Assembly (NCBI GenBank): GCA_002839855.1
Contig: PGYV01000005.1
Location: forward strand, 205,824-269,823
Source of the DNA: Candidatus Goldiibacteriota bacterium HGW-Goldbacteria-1
GTDB lineage: Bacteria; Oederibacteriota; PGYV01
Reading direction: 5' to 3'
DNA: 64,000 bases
In this document: positions 23,315 to 44,261 of the stretch, piece by piece
Numbering within the stretch: position 1 is the stretch's first letter
How the letters are laid out: every line of letters starts with the position of its first letter
Notes under the pieces: model-generated
Seen by the model: only the letters and a program-made list of their open reading frames with translations
Database searches by the model: none
Told to the model about the DNA's origin: nothing
Made by a program: the position numbers and the translations under genes

Positions 23315-24277
23315 TTACTCCTTGTATTCTTTTCCTATATCTTCATAAAACTTCTTTAATTTACCGTCAAGTCGTTCGTCCTGCGCTTTGAATATATCAT
23401 CCATTGTTACGCCAAGAGTCTTGCTTAATACGCCCATTAAACGGGCGCCCGTCTTCATGTATTTATCCATTTCCGCCTTTATAGCCGCGGCATCTTCGGT
23501 GTTTATGTTTTCTTCCACAAGTTTCTTCAGGCCGCTGTCTTCGCTGTATATAATCCTTAACAGGGCGGTGGCCACCTCTTTAACGGCAGGTAATTTGCTG
23601 TTCATATAAGTTTGAATACCAATAAGTTTTTCAAGAGAATTCCTGCGGATATCCACCGCCGTATTTTCAAGGTCTTTAATCGCGGACGCAACCGCTATTT
23701 CCGGATCAATCTTGGCAAGAGCTTCAAAACCATTCGCGTATTCAGCCGCGTCAGAGCCAAATTTATGCATTGCGTCAATTATCTGCGGTACCGCCTTTTT
23801 TGCCTTTACCGACATTTTACCAAGCGCCAGATAAGCAGCCTGCCTTGCTTTAGAAGAACCTTCATTAAGATATGACGCTATCTTTTCCGCCATCTCTTCT
23901 TCTGCCGGCTGCGCTTTATTTATGAAGTCATTTATAGTGGCTGTAATTGTAAGTTTTGTATTTACCGCAAGCGCTTTTATAAGCGACGGTATAACATAAG
24001 AACCTGCCCCGTTATCCGCAAGCGCCTTAATAATACGCACCTGTGTGTCCGCATCACTTTCTTTCTCAAGCTGCGCGGCTGTCATTAATAGCACTTCTTT
24101 TTTGTCATCAGCGCTTAAGGTTTCAAACTGCTTTTCAGCCATAAGTTTTACATCAGCATCTTGGGAATACAGCCTCTGATGTATTGGTTTTAAGGGTTCC
24201 GGAGTGGTGTCAATGCCGGCGCAGGACACCATTATTAAAGCAATAATAAAAACCTGTATCATATGAATTTTTTTCAC
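23315..24277 (-). CDS. Lipoprotein with HEAT-like repeats
   Basis: 320 residues from a GTG start with GGAGGA upstream. Lipoprotein signal ending IALIMVSC (Cys19). The body is all-helical with HEAT-type units: AQVRIIKALADNGAG-like, SSKARQAAYLALGKMSVKAKKAVPQIIDAM, ADNIRRNSLEKLIG-like. Repeats of this kind act as protein-protein scaffolds. The C-terminal part (SKTLGVTMDDIFKAQDERLDG) is different and may be a separate small domain. Function unknown. Confidence 0.75.
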   Translation of the reverse strand: MKKIHMIQVFIIALIMVSCAGIDTTPEPLKPIHQRLYSQDADVKLMAEKQFETLSADDKKEVLLMTAAQLEKESDADTQVRIIKALADNGAGSYVIPSLIKALAVNTKLTITATINDFINKAQPAEEEMAEKIASYLNEGSSKARQAAYLALGKMSVKAKKAVPQIIDAMHKFGSDAAEYANGFEALAKIDPEIAVASAIKDLENTAVDIRRNSLEKLIGIQTYMNSKLPAVKEVATALLRIIYSEDSGLKKLVEENINTEDAAAIKAEMDKYMKTGARLMGVLSKTLGVTMDDIFKAQDERLDGKLKKFYEDIGKEYKE

Positions 24278-28318: not shown

Positions 28319-29542
28319 TTATTTACCTGTTTCAAAAGCTTTTTTTGCCGCTTTAAGATTATTTCCTTCCGGCCTGCCGTTATATTCATCCCACGCTTCA
28401 AAAAGCGATCGCATTCCCGCGTAGCCGCCGTCCGGGTGGCCAAATACGCCGCCGCCGCACAGAAACATGAAATCATTATTCCCTATTTTCTTTAAGTTAT
28501 CCGCCAGTTTGCCCGCCCACATGCCGCCGGACGATACAGGAAGCGCGGGTTTTAGCCCTGCCATGGGCGCGGTACACGCCCGCATGGACTGCAACATTTC
28601 TTCATCGCTCTCATATAAATATCCGCCAAGGCCGCCGCACTGTATCTGGTCGGCTCCGCACATTCTGGCAAGCTTTACATATACAACCGGCGAAATGCCG
28701 ATATAAGAACTGCGCAGTGATGCCGCGGCAAAATCCCTGTGCAGGTGTATGGGAAGTTTGGTATGCCTTGCAAGCACGCAGAGATTATTAAACCCGCCGG
28801 TAAACGAATTAAACATTAAAGCCCCTGCTCCGCCTTTTCTGACTATATCGTGGAACTTCATCGTTTTATCAGGGTCATCGGTTATGTTAACCGCGTACAT
28901 GGTGCACTTGCCTGTCTCCCTAAAAGATTTCTTCATGGCAATACCTACCGCTTTAGCCCTGTCTGCAATCCTGTTATATGGGGCGTCAGCCAATAATTCA
29001 TCATCTTTAATAAAATCCGCGCCGGCGCTTGCCGCCTGATAAGCCAGCTCCGCCTGCTGCTTCGTCGTAAGCCCTACGCACGGTTTTGTAATTGCCCCAA
29101 ACAGAGGCCTGCCAAAAGCGCCGGATATTTTACGCGAGCCTTCTATTCCAAACTGCGGCCCCGGAAAAAGATTTACAAAATCATCAGGCATTTCAATATC
29201 AATAAGTTTTACGGCTGTCAGTTCATACATGTCAAATATCTCGCCCGCCACTGTGGTCAACAGCATGGAAATTTTAGGCCCAAAATTCTCCCACGGATAA
29301 GAAATAATAACTTCCGCAGATGTAACTTTCCTGCCGGCAGGATATCTTGTCGGCAATGAATAACTGTCTTTATTACCTGTAATATTAACGCTTTCAACTT
29401 TTGCCCCAAACCTGGCTGCCAGAGCCGCTTCCCCGTCTAAATCTTTCCACGTGCCTGTGGACTGCATTTTGGCCATTAAAGATGCTGTTTTACCCGCATC
29501 ATCAGGTGTTTCAATGTAATACTTTGCTAAAATACGGCTCAT
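28319..29542 (-). CDS. RuBisCO-like protein (form IV), non-canonical active site
   Basis: 407 residues, shorter than true large subunits. The fold is clear: N-terminal domain with MQSTGTW (Thr65-Trp66 region), then the barrel. Against spinach numbering: K175 is kept (K153 in GAITKPCVGL), K177 is cysteine (C155), and the metal-site K201-D203-E204 is kept (K179, D181, E182 in DFIKDDE). H294-R295 is kept (HLHRD) and H298 is lost. H327 is glutamine (Q301), loop-6 K334 is tyrosine (Y308), S379-G380-G381 is kept (SSGG), and G403-G404 is kept. Losing K334 and H327 rules out normal CO2 fixation. Such proteins catalyse enolisation, isomerisation or decarboxylation of sugar phosphates. Its start overlaps the stop of the PAP2 gene upstream by 4 bp, so they are coupled. 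No methionine-salvage or apiose genes are near, so the substrate is unknown. Confidence 0.92.
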   Translation of the reverse strand: MSRILAKYYIETPDDAGKTASLMAKMQSTGTWKDLDGEAALAARFGAKVESVNITGNKDSYSLPTRYPAGRKVTSAEVIISYPWENFGPKISMLLTTVAGEIFDMYELTAVKLIDIEMPDDFVNLFPGPQFGIEGSRKISGAFGRPLFGAITKPCVGLTTKQQAELAYQAASAGADFIKDDELLADAPYNRIADRAKAVGIAMKKSFRETGKCTMYAVNITDDPDKTMKFHDIVRKGGAGALMFNSFTGGFNNLCVLARHTKLPIHLHRDFAAASLRSSYIGISPVVYVKLARMCGADQIQCGGLGGYLYESDEEMLQSMRACTAPMAGLKPALPVSSGGMWAGKLADNLKKIGNNDFMFLCGGGVFGHPDGGYAGMRSLFEAWDEYNGRPEGNNLKAAKKAFETGK

Positions 29543-30972
29543 TTTTCACCGTCATAATAAATTCTTTTACCCGCGTTTATAAACGCTTTTGCGCCGTCTT
29601 TGCCGTAATGATTGACTTCCAGCGCCCCGTTCTTTTTGTCAATTCCTTTAAACATACCTTCATAATAATTACCCGTATTTGACAGTATTACCCTTCCCTT
29701 TGCGGCATTTATAACCAGCATAGAGTTGGGATTAAAAACAGCGCCCTGTTTAATTCTAAGTTTAATATCGCCGTCAGCGGCTTTTAAAAAAACAGAATTA
29801 AATACAGCGCCAGGTTCTGCCGTGAAATTAACATCCCCTTTTGCGGAATAAAGAATCAGGCTGGAATACATTCCCTTTGCGTTAAAGTTTATGTCGCCTT
29901 TTAAGGTTTCTACTTTCAGCGTGTACGACGAATCCGGAAGGGATACTTCTGTATCCGCAACAAGCTCTGTGAACACGCCTTTTTTGGACGCCCTGTAATT
30001 AATTACGCCGCCGCCTTCTTTTTCCTTATAAGTATAATCATCCATAATATCATTGCCTTTAAGCCCGAATCCATTTGAAGCGGATTTTACAACGGCCCTT
30101 TTTTCACCGGCAAGTATATATACGGAACTTTGCTGCGTGTATATATTTACCGTATTATCCGGCGCCACCGCCGAATTGTATATTTTTTCCCTGTAAAAAG
30201 GCGTGGAAAAAAGAAAAGCCGAACCTGCCAGCGCCACTGCCATAACTGCCGCCGCTATGCCCGCAGGTTTTAAAGCACCGCTTCTTTTACGGTTGTAATC
30301 AAAATCACCTGTTTTTATTAAAAAGTCATCCGCAAGCGAAGCCGTCAAAATCACAATGCCGCCCGCCCAGATTACGTCGGATAAAAAGTGCGCTCCCTGC
30401 GCCATCCTTCCAAAACCCATAAGAGCCCCGTAAGAAACGCCCGCAATAAGCACTTTGTTCGCTGTGTTTTTATCACGGTGCCTTAAATAGAAGTACATAA
30501 CCGCGACCATAAACCCGGCAGAGGCGTGTCCGCACGGAAAGGAATGGCCTTTTCCCGGCGTTCCCGGCACAAGCGGTTTTGAATACTGCCACTTGCCGCC
30601 AAATTCAACAACCTCACGCGGCCTGGGATTACCCATATAACCTTTTAAAATAACATTCACAATAAGCCCCGGCCCCACAAGAAAAACAAACAGAAACAAA
30701 AGCGCCGGTTTTCTGTTTTTTCTGAATTGTTCGGAAAAAAATGAAGCGGCAACAGCACCGGCCGCTATTACACCAAGCCCAAGCGGTATTAAAGTGCCGT
30801 ATTTATAAAGCAATAAAACAAAAAAATTACCGCCGAATTTCCATACGCCGGAAGATGAATCATACAGAAACGACTGCACCCGTATATCAATATCAGACAT
30901 CCAGAAAGGAACCGTAACGGCAAGAAGCGATAACAGCATCAAAAGATTTCTTCTAATTTTATTTTCCGGCAA
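29539..30972 (-). CDS. PAP2-family membrane phosphatase with DUF4097-like C-terminal domain
   Basis: 477 residues from a TTG start. The N-terminal half is a six-helix PAP2/LpxE-type phosphatase. Motif 1 is K110-x6-RP in KGYMGNPRPRE, motif 2 is SFPCGH (144-149, Cys replacing the usual Ser), motif 3 is GR-x5-H-x3-D (R189, H195, D199). One more hydrophobic segment near 235-255 follows. The last ~200 residues form a repetitive beta domain (LKVETLKGDINFNA, LILYSAKGDVNFTA, VFLKAADGDIKLRI), like the DUF4097 adhesin/beta-helix fold, placed outside the membrane. PAP2 enzymes remove phosphate from lipids or lipid A. Its ATGA overlap with the RuBisCO-like gene ties the two in one operon. Confidence 0.85.
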   Translation of the reverse strand: MPENKIRRNLLMLLSLLAVTVPFWMSDIDIRVQSFLYDSSSGVWKFGGNFFVLLLYKYGTLIPLGLGVIAAGAVAASFFSEQFRKNRKPALLFLFVFLVGPGLIVNVILKGYMGNPRPREVVEFGGKWQYSKPLVPGTPGKGHSFPCGHASAGFMVAVMYFYLRHRDKNTANKVLIAGVSYGALMGFGRMAQGAHFLSDVIWAGGIVILTASLADDFLIKTGDFDYNRKRSGALKPAGIAAAVMAVALAGSAFLFSTPFYREKIYNSAVAPDNTVNIYTQQSSVYILAGEKRAVVKSASNGFGLKGNDIMDDYTYKEKEGGGVINYRASKKGVFTELVADTEVSLPDSSYTLKVETLKGDINFNAKGMYSSLILYSAKGDVNFTAEPGAVFNSVFLKAADGDIKLRIKQGAVFNPNSMLVINAAKGRVILSNTGNYYEGMFKGIDKKNGALEVNHYGKDGAKAFINAGKRIYYDGEK

Positions 30973-31055: not shown

Positions 31056-31469
31056 TTATACAAAACCCACTTCAAGATTTTTTTCAAGTTTATGAAATAT
31101 GGATTCCACTTCAAAGTTTTCCATTATTTTAATCTCGCACTTTTCAGACAGTACCCTTACCCCGTGCCATATCTTTTTATTTATGCATATCGGTTTATCC
31201 AGCAAAAACGCTTCTATTTTATCGGGCGTCTTTTCTTCTGCCACCAGCATTATTGCGGTGCCTGACACCGGTTCAAAAGTCTCATAAGATTCCGGATGCG
31301 CTTCAAGGCTGTCTGTCTTCCCGGGTCCCATTACAAGGTATCCTATCCTCCACCCTGTCTGTGCGGGTTCTGACAGCACCACCTGGAATATTTCATTTTC
31401 TTTTTCCTGGCAGATAATTTTTCCGTATTTCGCAAAATCTTTGCCTTTAAGGGGTTTTATCTCTATCAC
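31056..31469 (-). CDS. Cupin-fold protein, ureidoglycolate-lyase-like
   Basis: 137 residues. It opens IEIKPLKGKDFAKYGKII, the usual start of the ureidoglycolate lyase (AllA) family. A beta-barrel follows with HPESYETFEPVSGTAIMLV and a late WHGVRVLS strand (His in both cupin motifs). AllA splits ureidoglycolate to glyoxylate and urea, but no purine-degradation genes are seen, so the substrate is open. Its ATG overlaps the M16 protease stop (ATGA). It is the last gene of the long LPS-clpB run. Confidence 0.6.
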   Translation of the reverse strand: MIEIKPLKGKDFAKYGKIICQEKENEIFQVVLSEPAQTGWRIGYLVMGPGKTDSLEAHPESYETFEPVSGTAIMLVAEEKTPDKIEAFLLDKPICINKKIWHGVRVLSEKCEIKIMENFEVESIFHKLEKNLEVGFV

Positions 31470-34123
31470 TTGCCTGCCTCCCGTTTTTTCTTTACCGCGG
31501 CGCCGACAACAGCTTTAGTCAGGCCGTCCAGTTTAAAATATTTGTCTATGACAGCATTTACCTCTTCTTTTGTGACCGCATTTATTCTGTCCGGGAACGT
31601 CTCCACATTTTCATAACCCAGCCCAAGTATTTCATAAGCCGCGTAGGAATCGGCCCTGCCCATATAGTCCTGCATGCCTATCTTATACATACCGCTGATA
31701 TATGACTTGGCGGTCTTTAATTCTTCATCAGTAATGCCGTTCTTTTTAATATCATTAAGAATTTCAAGAATGGCGTCATACGCCGCCTGCTCGTTTTCCG
31801 GCGATGTGGCCGTGTATATCTTAAAAGCTCCCCGCTCTACTGTCCGGTCAAACATGGAATAAATTGTATAGCACAGGTTTTTTTTATCCCTTACCTCTGA
31901 AAACAACCTGCTGTTCATGCCGCCGCTTAAAACGGAATCCAGCACCCTAAACGGGTAATAATCGCCGGATCCTGTTTTAGGCCCCAAAAAGCCCAGCACC
32001 ATATGTGTCTGATTTTTGTCAAAAGTCTCACGTTTCTCTTTTTTCTGCTCTGTTATTTTTACGGGTATCTTAGCGCTTGGCTGTTTACCTTTTTTCCAGG
32101 AACCAAAAGATTTTTGCACCATATTTTTCGCTTCATCGTACTCTATATTTCCCACCACAGACACCACAAGGGTATTAGGCATAAGCCTGTTCTTGTGCCA
32201 CTCTTTAATCAGCGAAGAACTTATGCGGTTTACGGTTTCAACTTCGCCTGCCACGGAATATCCGTACGGGTGCCATTCATAAAGCGTCTCATTAAATATT
32301 TTCATCGCGTAACCGGCAGGATTATCTTTTCTGCGTTTTATCATGTTCACTATATCCGCTTTTTCTTTCTTAATCTCCGCAAGCGAAAAAGCAGGATTAA
32401 AAACGATATCCGAAAAAAGCGATATAAGCCCTTCAAAGTTTGAATTTAAGGATTCAAGCCCCCATCCAAAACTATCCCTTGAAATATCCTTAATTAAAAC
32501 AGCGCCTAAATTATCAATTTCTTCCGCTATCGCGGATGCGCTTCTTGTTTTAGTCCCTTTCATCATGGTTTCCATCATCAGGTTCGTAATACCCCTGTAA
32601 TACCCTTCCTGCGCGCTTTCATATGGCTGCCCGCCGGTGAACATAAACTTAGCGGAGACAATATCGGTATTTGAAAGTTTTTTATGTATAAAGAGAATGC
32701 CGTTTTTAAGTTTTTCCGACTTTAAGACACCGGCACCTTCTATTTTCGTTTCCGGTATTACAGTTACAGAATCTTTAATCCCTGCCGCGTCAAGCATCCC
32801 GGTAAATTCAGTTTCTGCTTTCGCGGGATAATAAAGCACAATATTGGCATTTTTTATGTCAAGATACCGGCTTGCCATTTTGGGAATATCGCTTTCTATA
32901 ACCCTCTGCAGCCCGTCATAATACGTATAATACATTTCGTGGCTGCCAAGCATCTGATAGTAGCCAAGGTTAACCGCCATATTTTCCACTTTCATATTCT
33001 CTTTTGATTCTTCCCTCATCATGTCCGCTTTCACCCTTGCAAGCACTTCGGGCTTTACAGCTTCTGTCTTTGCCCTTTCAATAAGCGTAAAGAGTTCTTT
33101 CAGTGTCTCCGCGTACTTGCCTTCCCTGACTGTGGCAAAAAACGCAATTACCCCGCCGGACTTTCCCGCAAAGATATCTACGTCTATTTCATCCACCAGC
33201 TGTTTTTCTTCTTTAAGCGTCCTGTACAAAACAGTGCTTTCAGAACCGGCAAGGACACGCGCCAGCACCTCTATAGCCGGCATATCTGAAGAGACAGCCG
33301 TAGGTATCCTGAAAGAAACCGCAAGATACCTGCTTTCAATCTGACCCGAAAACGCATTATATGTAAACGAATCCCTTTCCTGAATCCGGTCTACTCCGTT
33401 ATCTCCGGAACCCGGTTTGGCCGTTAACGATCCAAAAAGGTTTTCCGCGTAAGCCATTGTTTTTTCCGCATCCACATCACCGGCTATTACCACTATGATA
33501 TTTTCAGGTACGTAATGCCTTGAATAAAAATCCACCACTTTTTCCCTGTTAAAATTTTTCAGCCTGTCTTCATATCCTATTACAGGGTCGCGGTAATACT
33601 TTTCAAAAGAATTGTACATAAGCTTCTGCCACGTGAAAACATGGGGATTATCCAGACCCCTGTTAAGCTCTGTTATTACCACTTCCCTTTCTTTATTAAT
33701 TTCTTCTTCAGCGAAAATTGAAGCGGTAAGCGCGTCATACTCTATTTCAAGGGCTTTTTCAACATGTTCCGAAGGAAGCACGATCACATAATTTGTAGCA
33801 TCATAAGTGGTGAATGCATTATTGTATCCGCCAAGCTCTGTTATTTCCTTATCTATCTGCCCCAATCCCCTTTTTTGCGTCCCTTTAAACAGAAGGTGCT
33901 CTATAAAATGCGTCATTCCTTTTTCTGAATCGCTTTCATAAGCAGAACCCGTCTTAACCCAGAAATTACACGCCACTACGGGCGCCGCGTGGTTTTCTTT
34001 TATAATTATTGTAACACCGTTCTGAAGCACTTTTTTTGTTATATCCGTATTTGCCATTATTGCCCCTCTCATCACAAGTATCGATAACACCGCTATGGAT
34101 GCTGTTTTAATTAGCCTGTTCAT
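31466..34123 (-). CDS. Secreted M16-family zinc metalloprotease (two-domain)
   Basis: 885 residues, the length of a two-lobe pitrilysin/PqqL-type protein. Signal peptide about 1-24. The active N-terminal lobe has the inverted zinc motif HFIEH (72-76) and the third ligand E152 in VVITELNRG, exactly 76 residues on. The second lobe (starting ~470) repeats the fold (FMFTGGQPYESAQEGYYRGI) without the zinc motif and should be the non-catalytic half of the clamp. R/Y signatures such as GGMNSRLFSEVRDKKNLCYTIYS (GGMNSRLF...) are intact. It likely degrades short or misfolded peptides in the periplasm. It follows clpB by 26 bp with GGAGG before the ATG. Confidence 0.93.
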   Translation of the reverse strand: MNRLIKTASIAVLSILVMRGAIMANTDITKKVLQNGVTIIIKENHAAPVVACNFWVKTGSAYESDSEKGMTHFIEHLLFKGTQKRGLGQIDKEITELGGYNNAFTTYDATNYVIVLPSEHVEKALEIEYDALTASIFAEEEINKEREVVITELNRGLDNPHVFTWQKLMYNSFEKYYRDPVIGYEDRLKNFNREKVVDFYSRHYVPENIIVVIAGDVDAEKTMAYAENLFGSLTAKPGSGDNGVDRIQERDSFTYNAFSGQIESRYLAVSFRIPTAVSSDMPAIEVLARVLAGSESTVLYRTLKEEKQLVDEIDVDIFAGKSGGVIAFFATVREGKYAETLKELFTLIERAKTEAVKPEVLARVKADMMREESKENMKVENMAVNLGYYQMLGSHEMYYTYYDGLQRVIESDIPKMASRYLDIKNANIVLYYPAKAETEFTGMLDAAGIKDSVTVIPETKIEGAGVLKSEKLKNGILFIHKKLSNTDIVSAKFMFTGGQPYESAQEGYYRGITNLMMETMMKGTKTRSASAIAEEIDNLGAVLIKDISRDSFGWGLESLNSNFEGLISLFSDIVFNPAFSLAEIKKEKADIVNMIKRRKDNPAGYAMKIFNETLYEWHPYGYSVAGEVETVNRISSSLIKEWHKNRLMPNTLVVSVVGNIEYDEAKNMVQKSFGSWKKGKQPSAKIPVKITEQKKEKRETFDKNQTHMVLGFLGPKTGSGDYYPFRVLDSVLSGGMNSRLFSEVRDKKNLCYTIYSMFDRTVERGAFKIYTATSPENEQAAYDAILEILNDIKKNGITDEELKTAKSYISGMYKIGMQDYMGRADSYAAYEILGLGYENVETFPDRINAVTKEEVNAVIDKYFKLDGLTKAVVGAAVKKKREAGK

Positions 34124-34149: not shown

Positions 34150-36732
34150 CTATTTAATCTTTGAAATTAAAAAACCGTCCTTTGCTTCCACAACTATCGT
34201 TTTTCCTTCTGTAAGGCTGCCGGATATTATCAGTTTTGCCAGTTCATTTTCTATCCTTGACCTGATAATCCGCTTTAACGGCCTTGCTCCGTAAACCTCG
34301 TCAAAACCTTCTTCCGCTATCAGTTTAACCGCATTCCCGTCAATTTCAAGCATTATTCCTTTCTCTTTCAGCCTTTTTTTAAGCTCGTCTGCCTGTATCC
34401 TTACTATTCCATATATGTTTTCTTTTGATAACCTGTTAAACACAATTATTTCGTCAAGCCTGTTTATAAATTCAGGCTTAAACCGCCGCCTGACTTCTTC
34501 AAGCACCTCTTTTTTAATACTGTCATTATCGCCGGAAGATGATATTTTTTCGCTGCCTATATTGGAAGTCATAATTATAACCGAATTTTTAAAATCCACC
34601 ACCCTGCCCTGCCCATCAGTTAACCTTCCGTCATCCAGCACCTGCAGCAGGATATCAAATACGTCCGAATGCGCTTTTTCCACTTCATCAAAGAGTATGA
34701 CAGAATAAGGTTTTCTTCTTACCGCTTCTGTAAGCTGCCCGCCTTCTTCGTATCCCACATAACCGGGCGGGGCGCCTATAAGGCGCGATACTTCGTGTTT
34801 TTCCATGTACTCTGACATGTCTATCCTTATCATCGCTTTTTCATCGTCAAACAGAAAACGCGAAAGCGCGCGCGCAAGTTCCGTCTTGCCCACGCCTGTA
34901 GGCCCAAGAAATAAAAAAGTCCCCATAGGGCGCGCCTCTTCGGATATTCCGGCGCGCGCCCGCCTTATGGCATTGGCCACGGCTTCCACCGCGCCGTCCT
35001 GCCCTACAAGGCTTTGTTTAATATTTTCTTCCATCTTCATCAGCTTGCCGGCTTCGCCTTCCAGCATTTTGGATACCGGTATTCCCGTCCACTGCGAAAC
35101 CACTGCCGCTACGTCTTCCTCGTCAACTTCTTCCTTTAACAGGGTTCCTTCTTTGGTTAATTTTGCAAGTTCATTTTCAAGGGCTTTTATTTCTTTGTCC
35201 AGCTGCGCAAGTTCACCGTACCTTATCCTTGCCACCGCTTCAAGGTTTCCTTCGCGTTCAAACTTTTCTTCTTCCTGTTTTTTTATCTCTATATTTTTTT
35301 TTGCGGCGCGCATTTTCTCTATCACTTCTTTTTCCCTGCCCCACCGCGCGCCAAAAGCGTTCTTTTTTTCCTTTAAATCTTCTATGTCTGCCGTAAGTTC
35401 TTTCAGTTTGGCGGCGGTTTCCTTTTCGCCGGGTTCCTTTTTTACCGCTTCTTTTTCAATTTCAAGCCGCCTTAACCTGCGCTCTATGGAATCCATTTCC
35501 GCCGGCATGCTGTCAATTTCCATTTTTATTTTGGACGCGGCTTCATCCATCAAATCTATGGCTTTATCCGGAAGAAACCTTCCCTGAATGTACCTGTTTG
35601 AAAGGTTTGCCGCCGCGACAACCGCCCCGTCTTTTATCCTTACGCCGTGATGCACTTCATATTTTTCCTTAAGCCCCCTAAGGATTGAAATTGTATCATC
35701 CACAGACGGCTCATTTACCATTACAGGCTGAAACCTGCGCTCCAGCGCCGGGTCTTTTTCTATGTACCTGCGGTATTCATCAAGCGTGGTTGCGCCTATT
35801 GCCCTTAATTCACCGCGGGATAATGACGGTTTTAATATATTGGCGGCGTCCATTGCGCCTTCGGTTTTTCCGGCGCCTACCAGCGTGTGAATTTCATCAA
35901 TAAAAAGTATTATTTTACCGCCGGAATCTTTTATTTCCTTTAAAACCGCTTTCAATCGTTCTTCAAATTCACCCCTGTACTTTGCCCCTGCCACCATTGC
36001 ACTTATATCAAGCGCTATAACGCGCTTGTCTTTTAAATTTTCCGGCGCGTCACCCTTCATTATGCGCACCGCCACGCCTTCAGCTACAGCAGTTTTACCC
36101 ACGCCGGCTTCGCCTATTAAAACGGGATTATTTTTTGTGCGCCTTGATAACACCTGCATTACACGCCTGATTTCGGCATCCCTGCCAATGACGGGGTCAA
36201 TTTTTCCGGCCGCCGCAGCCGCCACAAGGTCTGTCCCATACTTTGAAAGCGCCCTGTATTTGTCTTCCGGATTCCGGTCTGTCACCCTTTGCCCACCGCG
36301 GACTTCACGCATGGCTTTTAATATTATGTCATATGACGCACCGTTATTTATTAATACATTACCTGCCGCGGAATTTTTATCATCCGCCATTGCAAGCATA
36401 AAGTGTTCTGTATTTACATACTCATCTTTAAATTCCGCAGCTTTTTTTACAGCTGCCGATGCCATGACATCTGTTTCTTTTGAAATATAAACTTCTGAAA
36501 TGCCGCTGACTTTTGAAAGTTTGTTTATGGCTGTTTCAAGACTGCCTGTTATTTTATATAAATCCGCCCCCGTTTTTTTCAGCACCTGTGCCGCCGCCCC
36601 GCTTTCATCTGCCAGCATTGCTTTTAATATGTGCTCCGGCATCAGCTGCTGGTTCCCGTACTCCGACGCAATTGAATGCGCCTGCCGAAGGGCTTCCTGC
36701 GCTTTTACAGTAAGTTTTTCAAAATCAATCAT
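34150..36732 (-). CDS. clpB: ClpB-type disaggregase
   Basis: 860 residues. Hsp100 chaperone that pulls proteins out of aggregates with DnaK. Clp-N repeat domains (1-145), NBD1 Walker A GEAGVGKT (207-214) and Walker [11 protein letters not shown], a coiled-coil middle domain (~400-530), and NBD2 Walker A GPTGVGKT (~605) and [12 protein letters not shown]. Pore loop tyrosines [14 protein letters not shown] and GYVGYEEGG are present. There is no ClpP-docking IGL loop, so it is ClpB rather than ClpA/C. Its start overlaps the manA stop by one base. No HrcA/CIRCE site is visible, and it appears to be expressed from the LPS run upstream. Confidence 0.96.
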
Positions 36733-37685
36733 TATTTCACCTCCGTAAATATTATCCGCGCCCCTTTACTGAATTTAATTATATAATTGCGGTACGAATA
36801 CGGCAGAAAAATAACATCGCCCCTTTTAAAAACATTACCGCCTTCAAGGCGCATCTCCCCTTCTATCACGGCAGCCACAACGGGTTTTCCGCCTTTTTCC
36901 ATGTAAGATAACTTTCCGGAAGTTTTTACCTCCGTGGACTGAAAATAACAGCATCCCAGAAGTTTTCTTAACGACATGCCGCCGCGCGATTTAAACCTGC
37001 TTTCTTTTAACGCTTTTTCAAGGCCGAATTTAAATGACATAAGGGCTTCTTCAATATGAAGCTGCCTTGGCTTTCCTTTTTCCAGCCTTCCCCAGTCAAA
37101 AAGCCTGTATGTTATATCCGCGTTCTGCTGGACTTCAAAAATAAGCAGCCCCGCGCCTATTGCGTGCACGGTGCCTGCCGGTATTAAAAAACAATCTCCG
37201 GGTTTTACCCGGTATTCCCGAAGCATTTCCGGAATATCGCCGTTTAAAGCCGCGTTTTTTATTTTCTCTTTTGAATAATTCTTTTTAAACCCCACCTGGA
37301 TAACCCCGCCCTTACGCCCCCCTATTATGAACCACATCTCTGTCTTGCCGCAGTTAAGCCCTTTTTTGCGCGCTATCTTATCATCGGGATGTATCTGCAC
37401 AGAAAGTTTGTGGGCAGTGTCTATGAATTTAAACAGCAGCGGAAACCTGCCGCTGTATTTTTTATTTACAGCCGGGCCAAGCAATTCTTCGCCGTGTTTT
37501 TTTACGGTGTCAGTCAGCTTTTTGCCCTTATATTTTCCGTTGGTTATAACGGATGACACGCTGTCTGTTGACGCAAAAAACCAGGCTTCGCCTATCCTTG
37601 CGTCAGGCGCCTTCATAAAATCCTTAAGTGTTTTTCCGCCCCAAATCATATCCTTATAAATCGGCTTAACTTTTATAGGGTACAT
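36732..37685 (-). CDS. manA: Mannose-6-phosphate isomerase, short (Bacillus) type
   Basis: 317 residues from the ATG at 37685, five bases after GGAGAG; an ATG at 37697 would place the start inside the spoIID end. It interconverts mannose-6-P and fructose-6-P. Zinc ligands in QIHPDD, KTEMWFI and GTVHAIG; the sugar-phosphate arginine lies in ADITYRLFDWGR. The second jelly-roll end (FKRGDVIFLPYSYRNY) is present. It supplies mannose units, fitting a run of envelope-polysaccharide genes. Confidence 0.92.
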   Translation of the reverse strand: MYPIKVKPIYKDMIWGGKTLKDFMKAPDARIGEAWFFASTDSVSSVITNGKYKGKKLTDTVKKHGEELLGPAVNKKYSGRFPLLFKFIDTAHKLSVQIHPDDKIARKKGLNCGKTEMWFIIGGRKGGVIQVGFKKNYSKEKIKNAALNGDIPEMLREYRVKPGDCFLIPAGTVHAIGAGLLIFEVQQNADITYRLFDWGRLEKGKPRQLHIEEALMSFKFGLEKALKESRFKSRGGMSLRKLLGCCYFQSTEVKTSGKLSYMEKGGKPVVAAVIEGEMRLEGGNVFKRGDVIFLPYSYRNYIIKFSKGARIIFTEVK

Positions 37686-37686
37686 A

Positions 37687-39711
37687 TTACTCTCCATACA
37701 ATTTTTTAATTACCGAACCCCTGTAATAATGCCTTAAAATTTCCTTATACTTTTTGCCTTTCAGTGACATACCTCTTAAACCGCGCTGGCACATCCCGAC
37801 GGAATGGCCCCAGCCCGCGCCGTAAATATAGATATACCTTATATATCCTTCTTCGTCCAATGCGTATTCCCATTTTATCACATTTGACCTTATTTTGCCC
37901 ATAACGGTGCGAATAGGGTCAAACTTAACTTCCATACTGCCTTTATCACCGGTAATTCTAAGGCGGGTCAACGCGCCGCCGCGCGCCCTTTTTAAAGGCT
38001 CCACTTTTTTTATCCTGCCTATATCTTTTCGTTTGGCAGCATACCGTTCAAAATCTTCCGCGTTTAAATACCTTATCCATCTGAAACTTGTTTCATTCGC
38101 GCCTTCGGCCTTGCAGTAAACATCAGGCATGCTTCTTACATATTCTTCAAGGTCAAAAGGAGAAAGCGGGAATTTCCATTTCCAGTTAAAATCCCCGTCA
38201 TAAACGCCTTTTAAGCTTTTTGACACTTTATAACCCCACACTTCATAGACATCTTCTGTATGACCGCCGCAGCAGTTGGAAAAAAAAGTGCTTATCAGTT
38301 TATCATCAGGGTCATACAGCGCCTCGCCGCGCGTGGCATCAACGGCGGCAACAGTCCTTTCCCTTTCCCCGTTAACGCCTTTATAAACCGCGCAATGCTG
38401 GGTTGCGCAGACATCATAACCGTCTTTTTTATGGCTGTTTAAATGTTTTAAAGTATACGTTCTGGCCGATACTGCCTGCGCTTTAAGCGCTTCTTCCGGC
38501 CAGTCAGAAGGTATTTCCGCGGCAATAAGGCCATAAAGGTATTCTTCCATATTAAGATTATTAACAACATTTATTTTATCAGAACGCAGTATCAGTGAAA
38601 AATCACCCCTGTAGGTGGTGTCTGATTTTTCCGCCCAGTAAAATCCCTGCCCGTAAGCTATATTATAAAAGGCAGCAGTGGCATTTAAACTGTTTGCCTT
38701 TATATCGGCATTCCTGCCTATAAGCGTCTTTGAATTGCCGTCAGCATCCGATATAAATATCCCCTTTTTTTCAATGGATAACTCGTATTCAATAAGTTTG
38801 CTTCCCCTGAAAAGTTCTTCTTTGTCATCGCCTGTTATCATAAAATCGGAACCATGTTTAAAGCTGACCGTTTCAGCGCCGTTAATTATGCCCACACGCA
38901 CCTGTTTAAAATTTTCTGAACCTTTAATACCCCGCTTTTCCGGAGGGTTATAGGTGTCGCGCCCTGTCTTTTTTCTCTGTTTATCAGCATCAATCATCTG
39001 TTTTATGGAAGGCACCAGCTGCGCGTACTGCTGCGCTTTTTCCCTGGCTTCTGTATCTTTTGTATCAACATCAATAACCTTATTCCAATATTTATAAGCG
39101 CTTATAAACTCTTCTTTCTTTTCATGCAGCACCGCTATGCGCCGGTTTAGTTCGGTGTATATTTTGTCTTTATTTATGGCTTCTTTGTAATATTCCAGCG
39201 CTTTATCAATGTCGCCGGTTTTCTCGCAGGCTTCAGCCATTTTAATGTAGGAAATATTTCTATATTTATTTGACTCTATTGCCTGAAGAAACCTTGCTTT
39301 AGCCTCTTCGTATCTTCCGGTTTCTAAAAGCATGCATCCGTGCCAGTAAAGAACTTCCCAGTTGGCCATCTGTTTTTGTTCAAGTACATTAACCATTTCT
39401 TCGCCTTTTGCGGCATCACCCATAAAATAATACATCTTAGCAAGTTCAAAGTGCGCGCGGACTTCGCCGGGGTTTAATTTAAGGATTTCAAGGTATGCTT
39501 CAACCGCTTTCTGATTTTCACCGTATTCTTTATACACAGACGCAAGCGAGTAATAATTTGACCTGTTAGAAGGACTTTCAGCCGATTTTATCACATAATA
39601 CGCTGCAGTCTTTTCAGGATTTGAGCCGTAATAAAAATCCGTCATGCTGTCCGCGTTTAAATTTACGCATACGGACAATAAAATAAGTAACGATAATAAA
39701 ACGCGTGTCAT
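37687..39711 (-). CDS. TPR protein with SpoIID/LytB peptidoglycan-processing domain
   Basis: 674 residues. Signal peptide [20 protein letters not shown]. Residues ~25-240 hold six or so TPR units ([40 protein letters not shown]). A linker with two beta segments leads to the SpoIID domain (~375-670). Its marks are [46 protein letters not shown] and [16 protein letters not shown]. SpoIID cuts glycan strands lacking stem peptides during sporulation; in non-sporulating diderms the domain is linked to cell-wall remodelling. Its start overlaps the lptB stop (ATGA), placing a wall enzyme in the LPS-export operon. Confidence 0.9.
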
Positions 39712-40445
39712 AGAGTAAACTTTTCACCCAGATAAATCTCGCGGGCTTTCTTATCGTGGGCAAGCTGGTCTGCAGGACCGTGAAGAAGTATTTTACCTTC
39801 ATAAAGTATGTAAGCGCGGTCGGTGATTGACAAAGTCTCTCTTACGTTGTGGTCGGTAATTAAAATACCTATATTTTTCTTTTTTAATTCCCTTATTATG
39901 TTCTGTATATCAAATACGGCTATGGGGTCAATTCCCACAAAGGGTTCATCCAGAAGAATAAAACTTGGCGACAGGACAAGCGACCTGGCTATTTCCGTCC
40001 TTCTTCTTTCCCCTCCCGACAGTGTGTACGCTTTCTGCTTTGCAAGGTGCGAGATTTTAAACTCTTCAAGCAGCTGTTCCAGCCTGTGTTTTTTATCCGC
40101 CTGCGGCATATCCATAAATTCAAGCACAGACATAATATTTTCTTCAACCGTTAAACGCCTGAAAATTGACGGTTCCTGCGAAAGATAGCTTATGCCGTTT
40201 AACGCCCTTTTATACATCGGCATTCCGGTTAAATTCATGCGGCCGCCGTCTTTATCATCCAGAAAAATACCGCCCGCATCGGGCTGAATTACGCCAAGGA
40301 CCATATAAAAAGTGGTGGTCTTGCCGGCGCCGTTAGGCCCTAAAAGCCCCACTATTTCGCCCTGCTTTACATCAACACATACGTCATTTACCACGCGTTT
40401 TTTATTATACGTTTTTACAAGGTGTTCAGTTTTAAGGTGTTTCAT
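39708..40445 (-). CDS. lptB: LPS export ABC transporter ATP-binding protein
   Basis: 245 residues. ATPase of LptB2FG, which pulls LPS out of the inner membrane. Walker A GPNGAGKT (36-43), [13 protein letters not shown] signature, Walker [14 protein letters not shown] and H-loop [10 protein letters not shown]. The sequence [21 protein letters not shown] is typical of LptB. LptF and LptG are not in the window. It follows lptA with a 14-bp overlap and has GGGAGGT before its ATG. Confidence 0.96.
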
Positions 40446-41304
40446 TTTGTACCTCCCTGCGCGCTTTTTCAGCGTCTGAATAATATATTTTAGACCAGAT
40501 ATTATCCTGAAGTTTTATCTTTTTTGTATTGGTGTCTATTACCGCCCTGTCAGAAAAAAACAAACTCTTTTTTCTTTTAAAAATAGGTTTACCGGTCAGT
40601 TCAAGTTCTTTTTTCTCATCGTTATATATTACAATATCCGCAAAAGCCACAATGTCCTGAAATTCCATCCTTACGCGGTTAGTGATTTTTTTCGCTTTTA
40701 TCTCATTTATTACCGTATTAAAATCCGCCTCGTCGCAGTAGATGGTGATTGTATTTCCGTCCGCCGTATTTTTTACCGCTTTTACCTTATCAGAAACCGT
40801 TATGATATTTAACCCGTCGGCATAAAACAGTTTCTTTGACGTCAGGTTAAGCCCGTACTCTTTGTAAAAAACCTTTACATTTCCGTCAGCTTCCGCGCTT
40901 TTTTTGTAATCCCTGCTTTTAAGCCTGTCGGCAGAAACACGTGCGCCCGCGGCATTTATTATCACATCACCTGCAAAGACCGCCATTTTATCTTCCACGG
41001 AAAATTTCATATTATCAGCGCTTATGTTAAGTTCTTTTACGCGCGGCTTCTTTTTTACCGGTGGTGCCGCCGTCTTTACCGGCTGAACTTTCGCCGCCGC
41101 AGTCACTTTCACAGGAAGCGCAGATGGTGTTTTATCCGCTGCCGGTGTTAATCCCGGAACAGGGGCTGCATCTTCCCCTGTCTTTTTTGCTTCCTGTATT
41201 CTTTCAGAGACATTTTTAAAATACTCATTTTCATACTTCGCGTCGTCTATCTTAAAACAGCCCGCAAAAACAAAAAGAATAATTACAGCCGCCGCTTTTT
41301 TCAT
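40432..41304 (-). CDS. lptA: LptA/OstA-like protein made as a lipoprotein
   Basis: 290 residues. Signal [16 protein letters not shown] with lipid cysteine at 16. Then a disordered stretch of ~75 residues rich in Ala/Pro/Lys ([13 protein letters not shown]). Then an OstA_N beta-jellyroll ([36 protein letters not shown], in part [19 protein letters not shown]) with two to three repeats. Classical LptA is a free periplasmic protein that bridges the two membranes. A lipid anchor plus long tether is unusual and suggests it stays attached to one membrane. Adjacent to lptC and lptB with 4-14 bp overlaps. Confidence 0.85.
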
Positions 41305-41855
41305 TGCTCTCCCACATCCACCGCTTTTAACCTGACCTGTTTCTTTATCTCCAGATTCTTAAAACCGGCGTCGCTTTCAAGCCCTATGCCCCTTAATACC
41401 GTACCGTCCCTTGTAACCTTTACTGCTTCTTCCGTATACATTTTTTTAAGCCTGTCATCCCAGAATAGTTTCTGCGTTTCTATAACCGCCCCGTCGCCGG
41501 ATATAGCTTTAACATTGCCTGTTATTTCCATAAAATTGGTGTCGGTATTAATAATTGCGCGGTCGCCGTATAATACCGTTTTACTGTTTGCTTCGTCAAG
41601 GTAGTTCATCACAAAACCCTGGGCGTACGCCTTCTTTTTAAGTTCAAATATTTGGGCGCCTTTGGCGTTTACTTCCCATTTCACTTCGCCCTTCTGTGCC
41701 GACTTTAAAGTAAAGTTTTCCATGACAAAATTCGGAACAGAATCTGCTTTATCACCCACAGGCAGGCTGGGTTTTATCTTTTTTTCCCTGCCGCAGCCGG
41801 GAAACAGCGTTGCTATTAAAACCAACATCAGTACTGCCGCCGTTATTTTTTTCAC
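41301..41855 (-). CDS. lptC: LptC-like LPS export protein, lipoprotein form
   Basis: 184 residues from a GTG start. Signal MKKITAAVLMLVLIATLFPGC with lipid cysteine at 21, where E. coli LptC has an uncleaved membrane helix. The body is the LptC/OstA jellyroll: NFVMENFTLKSAQKGEVKWEVNAKGAQIF, seen as VKWEVNAKGAQIFE, then LYGDRAIINTDTNFMEITG and DGTVLRGIGLESD. It hands LPS from the LptB2FG complex to LptA. The start overlaps the lpxL stop (GTGA), and the stop overlaps the lptA start. Confidence 0.88.
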   Translation of the reverse strand: MKKITAAVLMLVLIATLFPGCGREKKIKPSLPVGDKADSVPNFVMENFTLKSAQKGEVKWEVNAKGAQIFELKKKAYAQGFVMNYLDEANSKTVLYGDRAIINTDTNFMEITGNVKAISGDGAVIETQKLFWDDRLKKMYTEEAVKVTRDGTVLRGIGLESDAGFKNLEIKKQVRLKAVDVGEQ

Positions 41856-42769
41856 AGTTTTATACCTTTTTCTTCCATAGATTTTTCCGCAGTCATTCTA
41901 AACCGCCTGTGCACCCAGACCCACTGCTCCGGGTACTTGAAAATAAATTCCGAAATTTCTTTGTTATACTCTTCAGCCAGCTGTTCTGTTGTTTTACCTT
42001 CTGTTTCAATCGGCTTATTAATCTGTATGCCATAGTAATTATCACGCCTTCTGTATATACATACCGTCATAAGCTTAAGCCCCAGTTTCTGCGCAAGCAC
42101 AGCAGGCCCTGACGGGGTCTTTGCCATAACGCCAAGAAACGGGACATAGACGCTTTCCACGCTTGTATCCTGGTCTGACAGTATCCCGAATATCATACCC
42201 TGCCTTAAATATTTAATCATGGAGCGTATGTCGTCATCTTTTAAAAATATCTTTACGCCTGTTTTTGTCCTTGCCGAATTCACGGCAGATTCAATTAAGG
42301 GGTCAAACATACGCTTTGCCGCAGCACCCGCAATATTTCCGTTTAAAGCGGTAAAATGAGCTAAAAGTTCCCAATTGGACAGGTGAAGCGTCACCACAAT
42401 TACGCCTTTTTTTGTCTCTTTGGCTTCGTTAAAATATTCCAGTCCGTGCGTTTCTTTTACCATATTTTTGATTTTATCCGCGGGCCATACGGTGAACTTT
42501 AAAAACTCAAAAAAACCCCTGCCGTAATTACGGATGTTGCGATTTTCCAGTATTCCCTTTTCTTTTTCAGGCATTTTGGCGCCATAAACTATATCCAGAT
42601 TGCGCCTTAATGTGCGCCTGTCTTTATTAAGAAACAAGAAAACAAAAAGCGCAAAATACTCGCATGCTTTCGCGCCGATTCTCCAAGGTATAAAAAACAC
42701 AACAAGCCTGGCCGATTGTATAAAAAGATAAAGCAGAAAATTTCTAAATGCCTTCAGCTTCATCTTCAT
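41852..42769 (-). CDS. LpxL/HtrB-type lipid A acyltransferase
   Basis: 305 residues. N-terminal membrane anchor (NFLLYLFIQSARLVVFFIPW) then the LPLAT fold. The catalytic H-x4-E is in LHLSNWELLAH. RMFDPLIES, LKDDDIRSMIKYLRQG, GILSDQD and VPFLGVMAKTPSGPAVLA are the usual blocks. It adds a secondary acyl chain to lipid A or a related glycolipid. Which of LpxL/LpxM/LpxP it matches cannot be told by eye. It starts inside kdsC (26-bp overlap). Confidence 0.9.
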   Translation of the reverse strand: MKMKLKAFRNFLLYLFIQSARLVVFFIPWRIGAKACEYFALFVFLFLNKDRRTLRRNLDIVYGAKMPEKEKGILENRNIRNYGRGFFEFLKFTVWPADKIKNMVKETHGLEYFNEAKETKKGVIVVTLHLSNWELLAHFTALNGNIAGAAAKRMFDPLIESAVNSARTKTGVKIFLKDDDIRSMIKYLRQGMIFGILSDQDTSVESVYVPFLGVMAKTPSGPAVLAQKLGLKLMTVCIYRRRDNYYGIQINKPIETEGKTTEQLAEEYNKEISEFIFKYPEQWVWVHRRFRMTAEKSMEEKGIKL

Positions 42770-43298
42770 CGTTAAGATACCCTTTTACCGCCGCGTCCCA
42801 AAGGCCGCGCGCTTTAAGAACCATGTCAATTACTTCCCTTACGCAGCCCTGCCCGCCGTTTTTTTTGCATACATAATCAGCTTCTTTTTTTGCCTCGTTT
42901 GCCGAATCCGCGGGTGCCGCAGCAAAACCGCAGCGGCGCATTACAGGTATATCAATTATTTCATCGCCTATAAAACACACTTGCGCATCATCCAGTTTAA
43001 GTTTTTTCTTTAAGTCCTGATAAGGGGAAAGTTTGTTCAGCGCCCCCTGATATACGTGCGTTATTTTTAATTCTTTCGCCCTTATTTCTATTGCTTCTGA
43101 ATGCCTGCCGCTGATTATGGCAAACTGAAGCCCCGCGTGGCGGCCAAGGGAAATTCCCGTGCCGTCCTTTACGTTATACTGCTTGAATTCCGTGTTATTA
43201 CTGCCAATTATTATGCCGCCGTTTGTAAGCACGCCGTCCACATCAAGGCAGATAAGCTTTATCTTTGAAAGTTTCTTATTTTTTTTTAAGGCTGCCAC
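42744..43298 (-). CDS. kdsC: KDO-8-phosphate phosphatase KdsC
   Basis: 184 residues from a GTG start placed right after the kdsD TAA. HAD-superfamily C0 subclass: DVDGVLTNGG (nucleophile D19, acid D21), ISGRHSEAI, K in the helix LSPYQDLKKKLKL and the metal aspartates in FIGDEIIDIPVM. It frees KDO from KDO-8-P. A C-terminal tail of ~25 residues beyond the fold overlaps lpxL. Confidence 0.93.
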   Translation of the reverse strand: MAALKKNKKLSKIKLICLDVDGVLTNGGIIIGSNNTEFKQYNVKDGTGISLGRHAGLQFAIISGRHSEAIEIRAKELKITHVYQGALNKLSPYQDLKKKLKLDDAQVCFIGDEIIDIPVMRRCGFAAAPADSANEAKKEADYVCKKNGGQGCVREVIDMVLKARGLWDAAVKGYLNDEDEAEGI

Positions 43299-44261
43299 TT
43301 AAACAACCCCTGACTTTAATATATCATGAAGGTGAATAATGCCCGCAGGTTTCCCGTCCTTTGACACCGCAAGCAGCACTGTAATTGATTTTTCTTCCAT
43401 CACCGCAAGGGCTTTCATTACAAGGTCTTCTTCGGATATTATTTTAGGATTTTTTACCATTACTTCCGACATTTTCATCATAAACGGGTTGGCCTGTTTT
43501 TCCAGCAGGCGCCTTAAATCGCCGTCTGTAAAAATGCCGGCAAGCTTTCCTTTTACGCCGGTTACCGCCACACAGCCAAACCTTCCCGCGGTCATTACAA
43601 GCAGCCCCTCTTTTAATACCGCTTTTTCATCAATTGACGGAATGCTGTCCCCGGAATGCATTATGTCTTTTACCTTAAGCACAAGCTTTTTTCCAAGCGA
43701 ACCGCCCGGATGAAGCATGGCGAAATCCTCTTTCTTAAAGTTTTTCATGTTTAAAAGCACAACCGCAAGCGCGTCGCCAAGGGCCAGCTGTACCGTGGTG
43801 GAACATGTGGGCGCAAGGTTAAGCGGGCATGCTTCTTCTTCAACAGAAGAGCTAAGCACGCACACGGCTGATTTTGCAAGCGAAGAATTCTTCTTGCCGG
43901 TTATGGCAATTATTGGAATATTAAGCCTGCCTAAAGCGGGAAGAATGTTTATTACCTCTTCGGTTTCGCCGCTCTGCGACAGCATTATGACAACATCGCC
44001 TTTCATAAAAATTCCCATATCCCCGTGAGCGGCCTCTACCGGATGAAGAAAAACAGCAGGCGTGCCCATGGAGGCCATTGTGGCGGATATTTTCTGCCCC
44101 ACAAGGCCGGACTTGCCTATTCCGGATACCACCACTTTTCCTTTACACGCGCCTAATACCTCAACCGCTTTTTTAAAATCTTTTCCAAGCCTTTTCTTTG
44201 CCGATATTATTTCTTTAGCTTCCATCGCCAGTACTTTTTGCGCTTCTTTAATTATGTCCAT
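43299..44261 (-). CDS. kdsD: Arabinose-5-phosphate isomerase KdsD (SIS + two CBS)
   Basis: 320 residues. Makes D-arabinose-5-P from ribulose-5-P, the KDO precursor. The SIS domain (~30-190) has VVSGIGKSGLVGQKISATM, LHPVEAAHGDMG (catalytic His and Glu region) and LSQSGETEEV. Two CBS domains follow (~205-320). It is the first LPS-specific gene of the run, 34 bp after the coiled-coil/Zn-ribbon gene. kdsA, kdsB and waaA are not in the window. Confidence 0.95.
   Translation of the reverse strand: MDIIKEAQKVLAMEAKEIISAKKRLGKDFKKAVEVLGACKGKVVVSGIGKSGLVGQKISATMASMGTPAVFLHPVEAAHGDMGIFMKGDVVIMLSQSGETEEVINILPALGRLNIPIIAITGKKNSSLAKSAVCVLSSSVEEEACPLNLAPTCSTTVQLALGDALAVVLLNMKNFKKEDFAMLHPGGSLGKKLVLKVKDIMHSGDSIPSIDEKAVLKEGLLVMTAGRFGCVAVTGVKGKLAGIFTDGDLRRLLEKQANPFMMKMSEVMVKNPKIISEEDLVMKALAVMEEKSITVLLAVSKDGKPAGIIHLHDILKSGVV

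Follow-up and report, generated by a model that had tools for sequence, protein, structure and literature searches.

A RuBisCO-like protein with replaced carboxylase residues encoded beside lipopolysaccharide biogenesis genes in Candidatus Goldiibacteriota

The 64,000-nucleotide stretch of Candidatus Goldiibacteriota bacterium HGW-Goldbacteria-1 analyzed here (the window), which comes from an assembly of 2.86 Mb over 18 contigs, encodes a RuBisCO-like protein (RLP) that we predict to be a carboxylation-dead, Mg-dependent enolase or isomerase that acts on a keto-sugar with a single phosphate and is encoded within an envelope operon. We give this reading a probability of about 0.5. Fixation of CO2 by the window RLP is not plausible.

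Identity and active site of the window RLP

The RLP gene (28319..29542, minus strand) encodes 407 amino acids with matches to the Pfam families RuBisCO_large (E 2.4e-55) and RuBisCO_large_N (3.9e-9). The top chains of a phmmer search against the PDB are those of the C. tepidum RLP (1tel/1ykw, ~1e-78) and R. palustris RLP2 (2qyg, 2e-74). An AlphaFold model with a mean pLDDT of 90 gave 3nwr, 1tel and 2qyg as the best PDB folds in Foldseek (TM ~0.9), with 3nwr as the top match. The RuBisCO large-chain domains and the fold, together with the replacement of carboxylase residues at positions 60, 123, 177, 327 and 334, identify a form IV RLP. As the preliminary description of this DNA had implied, the protein is not part of a characterized form IV clade. 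The start of the gene overlaps the stop of the upstream gene for a PAP2 phosphatase by four bases (ATGA, 29539..29542, minus strand); the coordinates and strand of both genes and this overlap had been given correctly. No related stretch was found in viral_contigs with patterns derived from the window RLP alone, and none of the literature titles and abstracts retrieved for Goldbacteria with RuBisCO, RLP with apionate or RLP with lipid A concerned this gene.

Residue numbers are those of spinach RuBisCO and were assigned from motifs and from an alignment with form III proteins, in an active-site table of 62 proteins; all codons given here lie on the minus strand. In RuBisCO, K175 is the catalytic lysine, R295 and S379 are part of the site that holds the C5 phosphate, T65 and W66 belong to the P1 phosphate site, and K334, its partner E60, H327 and K177 are tied to CO2 handling. 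The window RLP keeps K175 (Lys153, 29084..29086), the metal and carbamate site K201/D202/D203/E204 (Lys179-Asp180-Asp181-Glu182, 28997..29008), H294-R295 (His268-Arg269, 28736..28741) and S379-GG, with Ser338 at position 379. Lysine 177 is replaced by cysteine (Cys155, 29078..29080), H327 by glutamine (Gln301, 28640..28642) and K334 of loop 6 by tyrosine (Tyr308, 28619..28621). The alignment confirms these kept and changed residues as they were first listed, with K201, D203 and E204 named for the metal site, and adds two further changes, E60 to methionine (Met26, 29465..29467) and N123 to glutamate (Glu101, 29240..29242). Position 123 is also glutamate in the Photo RLPs, and is lysine in MtnW.

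Among the aligned orthologues, K175, K201, D203, E204, H294, R295 and S379 are retained throughout. All of them also have C177, Q327 and E123 and have lost K334, position 334 being mostly tyrosine, with serine in one family. Other form IV proteins also have Q327 or C177; what is particular to the window clade is the combination of residues. Family f3 of the order (L009-L011) has additional changes, at T65 and W66 of the P1 site and at glycine 403. Members of the clade may therefore not all have one function, or part of the chemistry may be on its way to being lost in that family; the changes fit a substrate without a P1-side phosphate, or a further shift of function there.

We propose that the RLP would act as a cytoplasmic, metal-dependent enzyme in which the carboxylation chemistry has been lost. 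Metal-assisted enolisation of a keto-sugar, or of a similar compound, would take place with its one phosphate at the R295/S379 side, and K175 and the new Glu123 could serve as the acid/base groups. The outcome would be that of an isomerase or tautomerase, neither of a carboxylase nor of a decarboxylase. Metal-assisted enolisation is the known chemistry of the superfamily, with MtnW and DeepYkr as described previously (PMC6302742, PMC5893883).

Distribution and phylogeny of the RLP clade

A survey of genomes for the RLP/PAP2 adjacency, which had been suggested earlier, found a full RLP orthologue adjoining PAP2 in 11 of the 14 genomes of the order, that is, in the window's own and in ten others at 50-92% identity. 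Eight of the 11 adjoining pairs have the 4-base overlap. With this recurrence, the pairing is not due to chance. Genome G005 has an N-terminal piece of the RLP, following a holA-like gene, at a contig end, and its PAP2 gene is on a separate contig; repeats are present at both contig ends, so misassembly is possible. Genomes G007 and G013 have PAP2 at the locus and no RLP. Among the genomes searched, the RLP clade is restricted to the window's order. The dN/dS of the RLP is 0.086-0.087 against congeners, and since the ratio is close to 0.09 the gene very likely specifies a functional protein. The RLP evolves more slowly than PAP2: across the order outside the genus, identities are 50-61% for the RLP versus 32-40% for PAP2.

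Trees of 61-62 proteins were built with IQ-TREE with and without the active-site columns, and the RLPs of the order form a single clade in them (support 100/99 and 100/100). With the active-site columns removed, the nearest kin are RLPs from three other bacterial families, L044 (genome G058), L088 (G145) and L148 (G398), at 93/83, so that the joining of the clade to this sister trio is moderately supported. Next out are the Photo RLPs; the window clade, the sister trio and the Photo proteins together make up 18 rows with support of 97/86. Within this assemblage the window clade pairs with the trio, and the Photo proteins (1ykw, 2qyg) form a 100/100 group of their own on a separate long branch. 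The acid-sugar group, which includes OiaX, is a separate clade (100/99), and the MtnW and DeepYkr groups are found elsewhere in the tree, DeepYkr as a separate clade with 100/100. In AU tests, a grouping of the order's clade with OiaX proper was rejected (p-AU 5e-11), and one with the whole acid-sugar superclade was weakly rejected (0.03). The form IV tree that the preliminary description had recommended thus places the window RLP outside OiaX, MtnW and DeepYkr, beside the Photo RLPs.

The sister trio keeps E60, N123, H327, K334, R295 and S379; among these positions and K177, only K177 differs, being Cys or Asn, with Cys in L088 and L148. Because E60, N123, H327 and K334 are all kept in the three sisters, their changes are assigned to the stem of the order's clade. 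The simplest reading of the sequences is that C177 would be old in the group and that the four other residues were replaced on that stem. The sister RLPs have as neighbors folK and a transaldolase-family gene (G058), an O-methyltransferase and a SpoU methylase (G145), and glcD (G398), with no PAP2 beside them in the stretches examined; the phyla of G058 and G145 have one genome each in the search set.

Several observations were made on other RLPs. GlcD-like FAD oxidases are encoded near RLPs of two different clades (L148:2810-4186 and L120:4553-5980). In two unrelated bacterial families, Photo-like RLPs (L119 of G312 and L121 of G175) have xseA, xseB and the gene for a polyprenyl synthase in their vicinity; in L119 the RLP comes immediately after the synthase. 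A tie of these two RLPs to isoprenoid metabolism is possible. A separate RLP group near MtnW, from other families of the phylum (L045, L048-L051 and similar), keeps Asn123 and Lys334, unlike MtnW; its member L045 scores 420 bits against the PRK09549 enolase model, for which the cut-off is 409.

The PAP2 neighbor and the lipopolysaccharide genes

The PAP2 gene (29539..30972, minus strand) encodes an LpxF-like lipid phosphatase with a C-terminal, toastrack-like beta domain, as assigned from Pfam (2.7e-20), NCBIfam, structure and alignment. In NCBIfam it matches the lipid A 4'-phosphatase LpxF best, at 2.5e-28 across 190 residues. However, the score of 99.5 bits is below the equivalog cut-off of 400, and the beta domain, which resembles extracytoplasmic adhesin/DUF4097 domains, is an addition compared to LpxF. 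The catalytic motifs are intact in nine homologues (K-RPRP, GH and R-GAH-D), with K110, R117-P118, G148-H149, R189, H195 and D199 invariant. Motif and context suggest that the protein acts like a lipid phosphatase. It is most likely a periplasmic-side phosphatase for a lipid of the lipid A or undecaprenyl type, predicted neither to feed nor to drain the RLP. Other families of the phylum (e.g. f7 and f13) also have PAP2 homologues, and in them an orthologue of the window RLP was not found.

Both genes are located at the end of a conserved, co-directional series, KdsD-KdsC-LpxL-LptC-LptA-LptB-SpoIID-ManA-(ClpB)-M16-cupin-PAP2-RLP, which several families of the order share from KdsD to the RLP; ClpB is the movable piece. 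In the window, all on the minus strand, family searches and gene context identify a KdsD-type (KpsF/GutQ family) arabinose-5-phosphate isomerase, a KdsC-family phosphatase and an LpxL-type acyltransferase (41852..44261), the lipopolysaccharide export proteins LptC, LptA and LptB, the last by position and sequence (39708..41855), a TPR and SpoIID-domain protein (37687..39711), the class I mannose-6-phosphate isomerase ManA (36732..37697), a ClpB-type ATPase found at this place in some genomes only (34150..36732), an M16 peptidase (31466..34123) and a small cupin of the ureidoglycolate-lyase (AllA) family (31056..31469), which adjoins PAP2 with or without the RLP. A HEAT-repeat-like protein (23315..24277, minus strand) comes after the RLP in most relatives and directly after PAP2 where the RLP is missing; G007 has M16-AllA-PAP2 followed directly by the HEAT-like gene, and G013 has PAP2 followed by HEAT. 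The M16 and cupin genes share the same kind of overlap as the RLP and PAP2 genes, so the ATGA overlap is ordinary in this operon. The RLP gene probably shares a transcript with these genes, at or near the end of a lipopolysaccharide biogenesis operon; gene order alone is no proof of this.

The preliminary statement that no methionine-salvage, apiose or isoprenoid-shunt genes adjoin the RLP was borne out. The AllA-like cupin was considered as an isoprenoid-shunt methylsulfurylase and rejected: a PDB search returned no relevant chain even at E 10, its only matches are weak ones to ureidoglycolate lyase, and it occurs without the RLP.

Candidate roles of the RLP

Among the known groups, the Photo RLPs are the nearest structurally characterized relatives and give the closest PDB sequence matches (C. 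tepidum 1ykw/1tel and R. palustris RLP2 2qyg). They have in common with the window RLP the glutamate at 123, the fold at TM ~0.9 and the 18-row clade. To our knowledge, no function or substrate has been assigned to the Photo RLPs or to several other RLP groups; the C. tepidum protein has stress and sulfur phenotypes. That the window RLP does what the Photo RLPs do is an improbable reading, if less so than the other alternatives considered here. Positions 65, 295, 327, 334, 379 and 381 are Gln, Phe, Ile/Gly/Val, Arg, Gly and Ser in the Photo RLPs versus Thr, Arg, Gln, Tyr, Ser and Gly in the window RLP, which thus has none of the Photo letters Q65, F295, R334, G379 and S381, and the Photo group is on its own long branch. 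The decarboxylation of a 3-oxo acid-sugar phosphate, as by OiaX, is highly unlikely. OiaX is the best NCBIfam match, the acid-sugar RLPs (3nwr type, DUF1537-linked) give the top Foldseek match and share H294-R295, and OiaX proper also has Gln at 327. But the score of 297 bits is far under the curated cut-off of 700, true members scoring 750-791; K334 is kept in OiaX and lost here; both AU tests disfavor the grouping; and the gene setting is not that of OiaX-type RLPs, the DUF1537 kinase (PF07005) that accompanies several RLPs of the acid-sugar superclade being absent from the 14 genomes of the order in searches with working controls. Methylthioadenosine salvage, as by MtnW or DeepYkr, would be favored by the presence of mtnA in 12 of the 14 genomes and by the slight isomerase activity of Photo RLP2 on methylthioribulose-1-P in vitro (PMC5893883). 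Yet RLP2 has no role in that pathway in vivo (PMC5893883), and G007 and G013 have mtnA although they lack the window RLP type. MtnW, the DK-MTP-1-P enolase, shares with the window RLP the carbamate/metal site, the enolase-type superfamily and the absence of K334, but differs in having Lys123 and Pro295 in place of Glu and Arg, and is separate in the tree; the window RLP reaches ~158 bits to 2oek, and 201 and 168 bits against the MtnW equivalog cut-offs of 409 and 513. DeepYkr (R. palustris RLP1, 3qfw) belongs to the same superfamily and has KDDH and Arg334 versus KDDE and Tyr334, so that the window RLP falls outside it by both clade and motif. The better candidate for this pathway is the second RLP of the genome, on contig C15, which is of the DeepYkr type by its best PDB match (3qfw) and by the tree, and we regard participation of the window RLP as very unlikely.

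The preliminary description suggested a common pathway of the two proteins, with a phosphorylated sugar or polyol as the substrate and a phosphate that PAP2 makes or removes; this suggestion is not supported. In its favor is their adjacency, mostly with the 4-base overlap, in 11 of the 14 genomes of the order. Against it, G007 and G013 retain PAP2 at the locus although they have no RLP, PAP2 is an LpxF-like membrane enzyme within a lipopolysaccharide operon with relatives where the RLP orthologue was not found, and the sister RLPs have no PAP2 neighbor; we consider such a pathway very improbable and have rejected it. The RLP might alternatively serve the supply of lipopolysaccharide sugars, in which it would isomerise a pentulose or hexulose phosphate feeding the KdsD/KdsC or ManA steps. 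The conserved block includes KdsC, ManA and KdsD, the last from a family of ribulose-5-phosphate/arabinose-5-phosphate isomerases, and R295 and S379 of the C5-phosphate side are kept. This role is nevertheless unlikely: the G007 operon is complete without the RLP, the sister RLPs are outside lipopolysaccharide operons in the stretches examined, and ribulose-phosphate 3-epimerase (Rpe), encoded in 13 of the 14 genomes, leaves no need for a substitute. For the same reason the RLP was rejected as a replacement of Rpe. A ribulose bisphosphate pathway was likewise rejected, as no convincing phosphoribulokinase was found in the order, where short, weak matches occur in three genomes only. The preferred reading, a carboxylation-dead enolase or isomerase of a monophosphorylated keto-sugar, leaves the PAP2 pairing as one of operon neighborhood.

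At L003:4456-9575 (genome G000, contig C15), the gene for the second, DeepYkr-type RLP is accompanied by genes for the N- and C-terminal halves of a split transketolase and for Amidohydro_2 proteins. Three further genera of the order show the same grouping (G010, G006 and G012; loci L136, L137 and L138). The cluster is a candidate for a new route of methylthio- or deoxy-sugar phosphate salvage.

The window RLP is a conserved, uncharacterized variant within form IV. It might represent a new functional branch, one that began with a near-RuBisCO site as still present in the sister RLPs and in which the joint change of E60, N123, H327 and K334 on a single stem produced an isomerase or tautomerase acting on a sugar phosphate of lipopolysaccharide synthesis, although we hold this full scenario to be unlikely. 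The analysis removes the RLP/PAP2 pathway as a false lead and directs attention to the second RLP of the genome, whose cluster is more telling. Since the sisters keep E60, N123, H327 and K334 and the window clade has none of them, the transition from the chemistry of RuBisCO to that of RLPs would be testable between two close clades.
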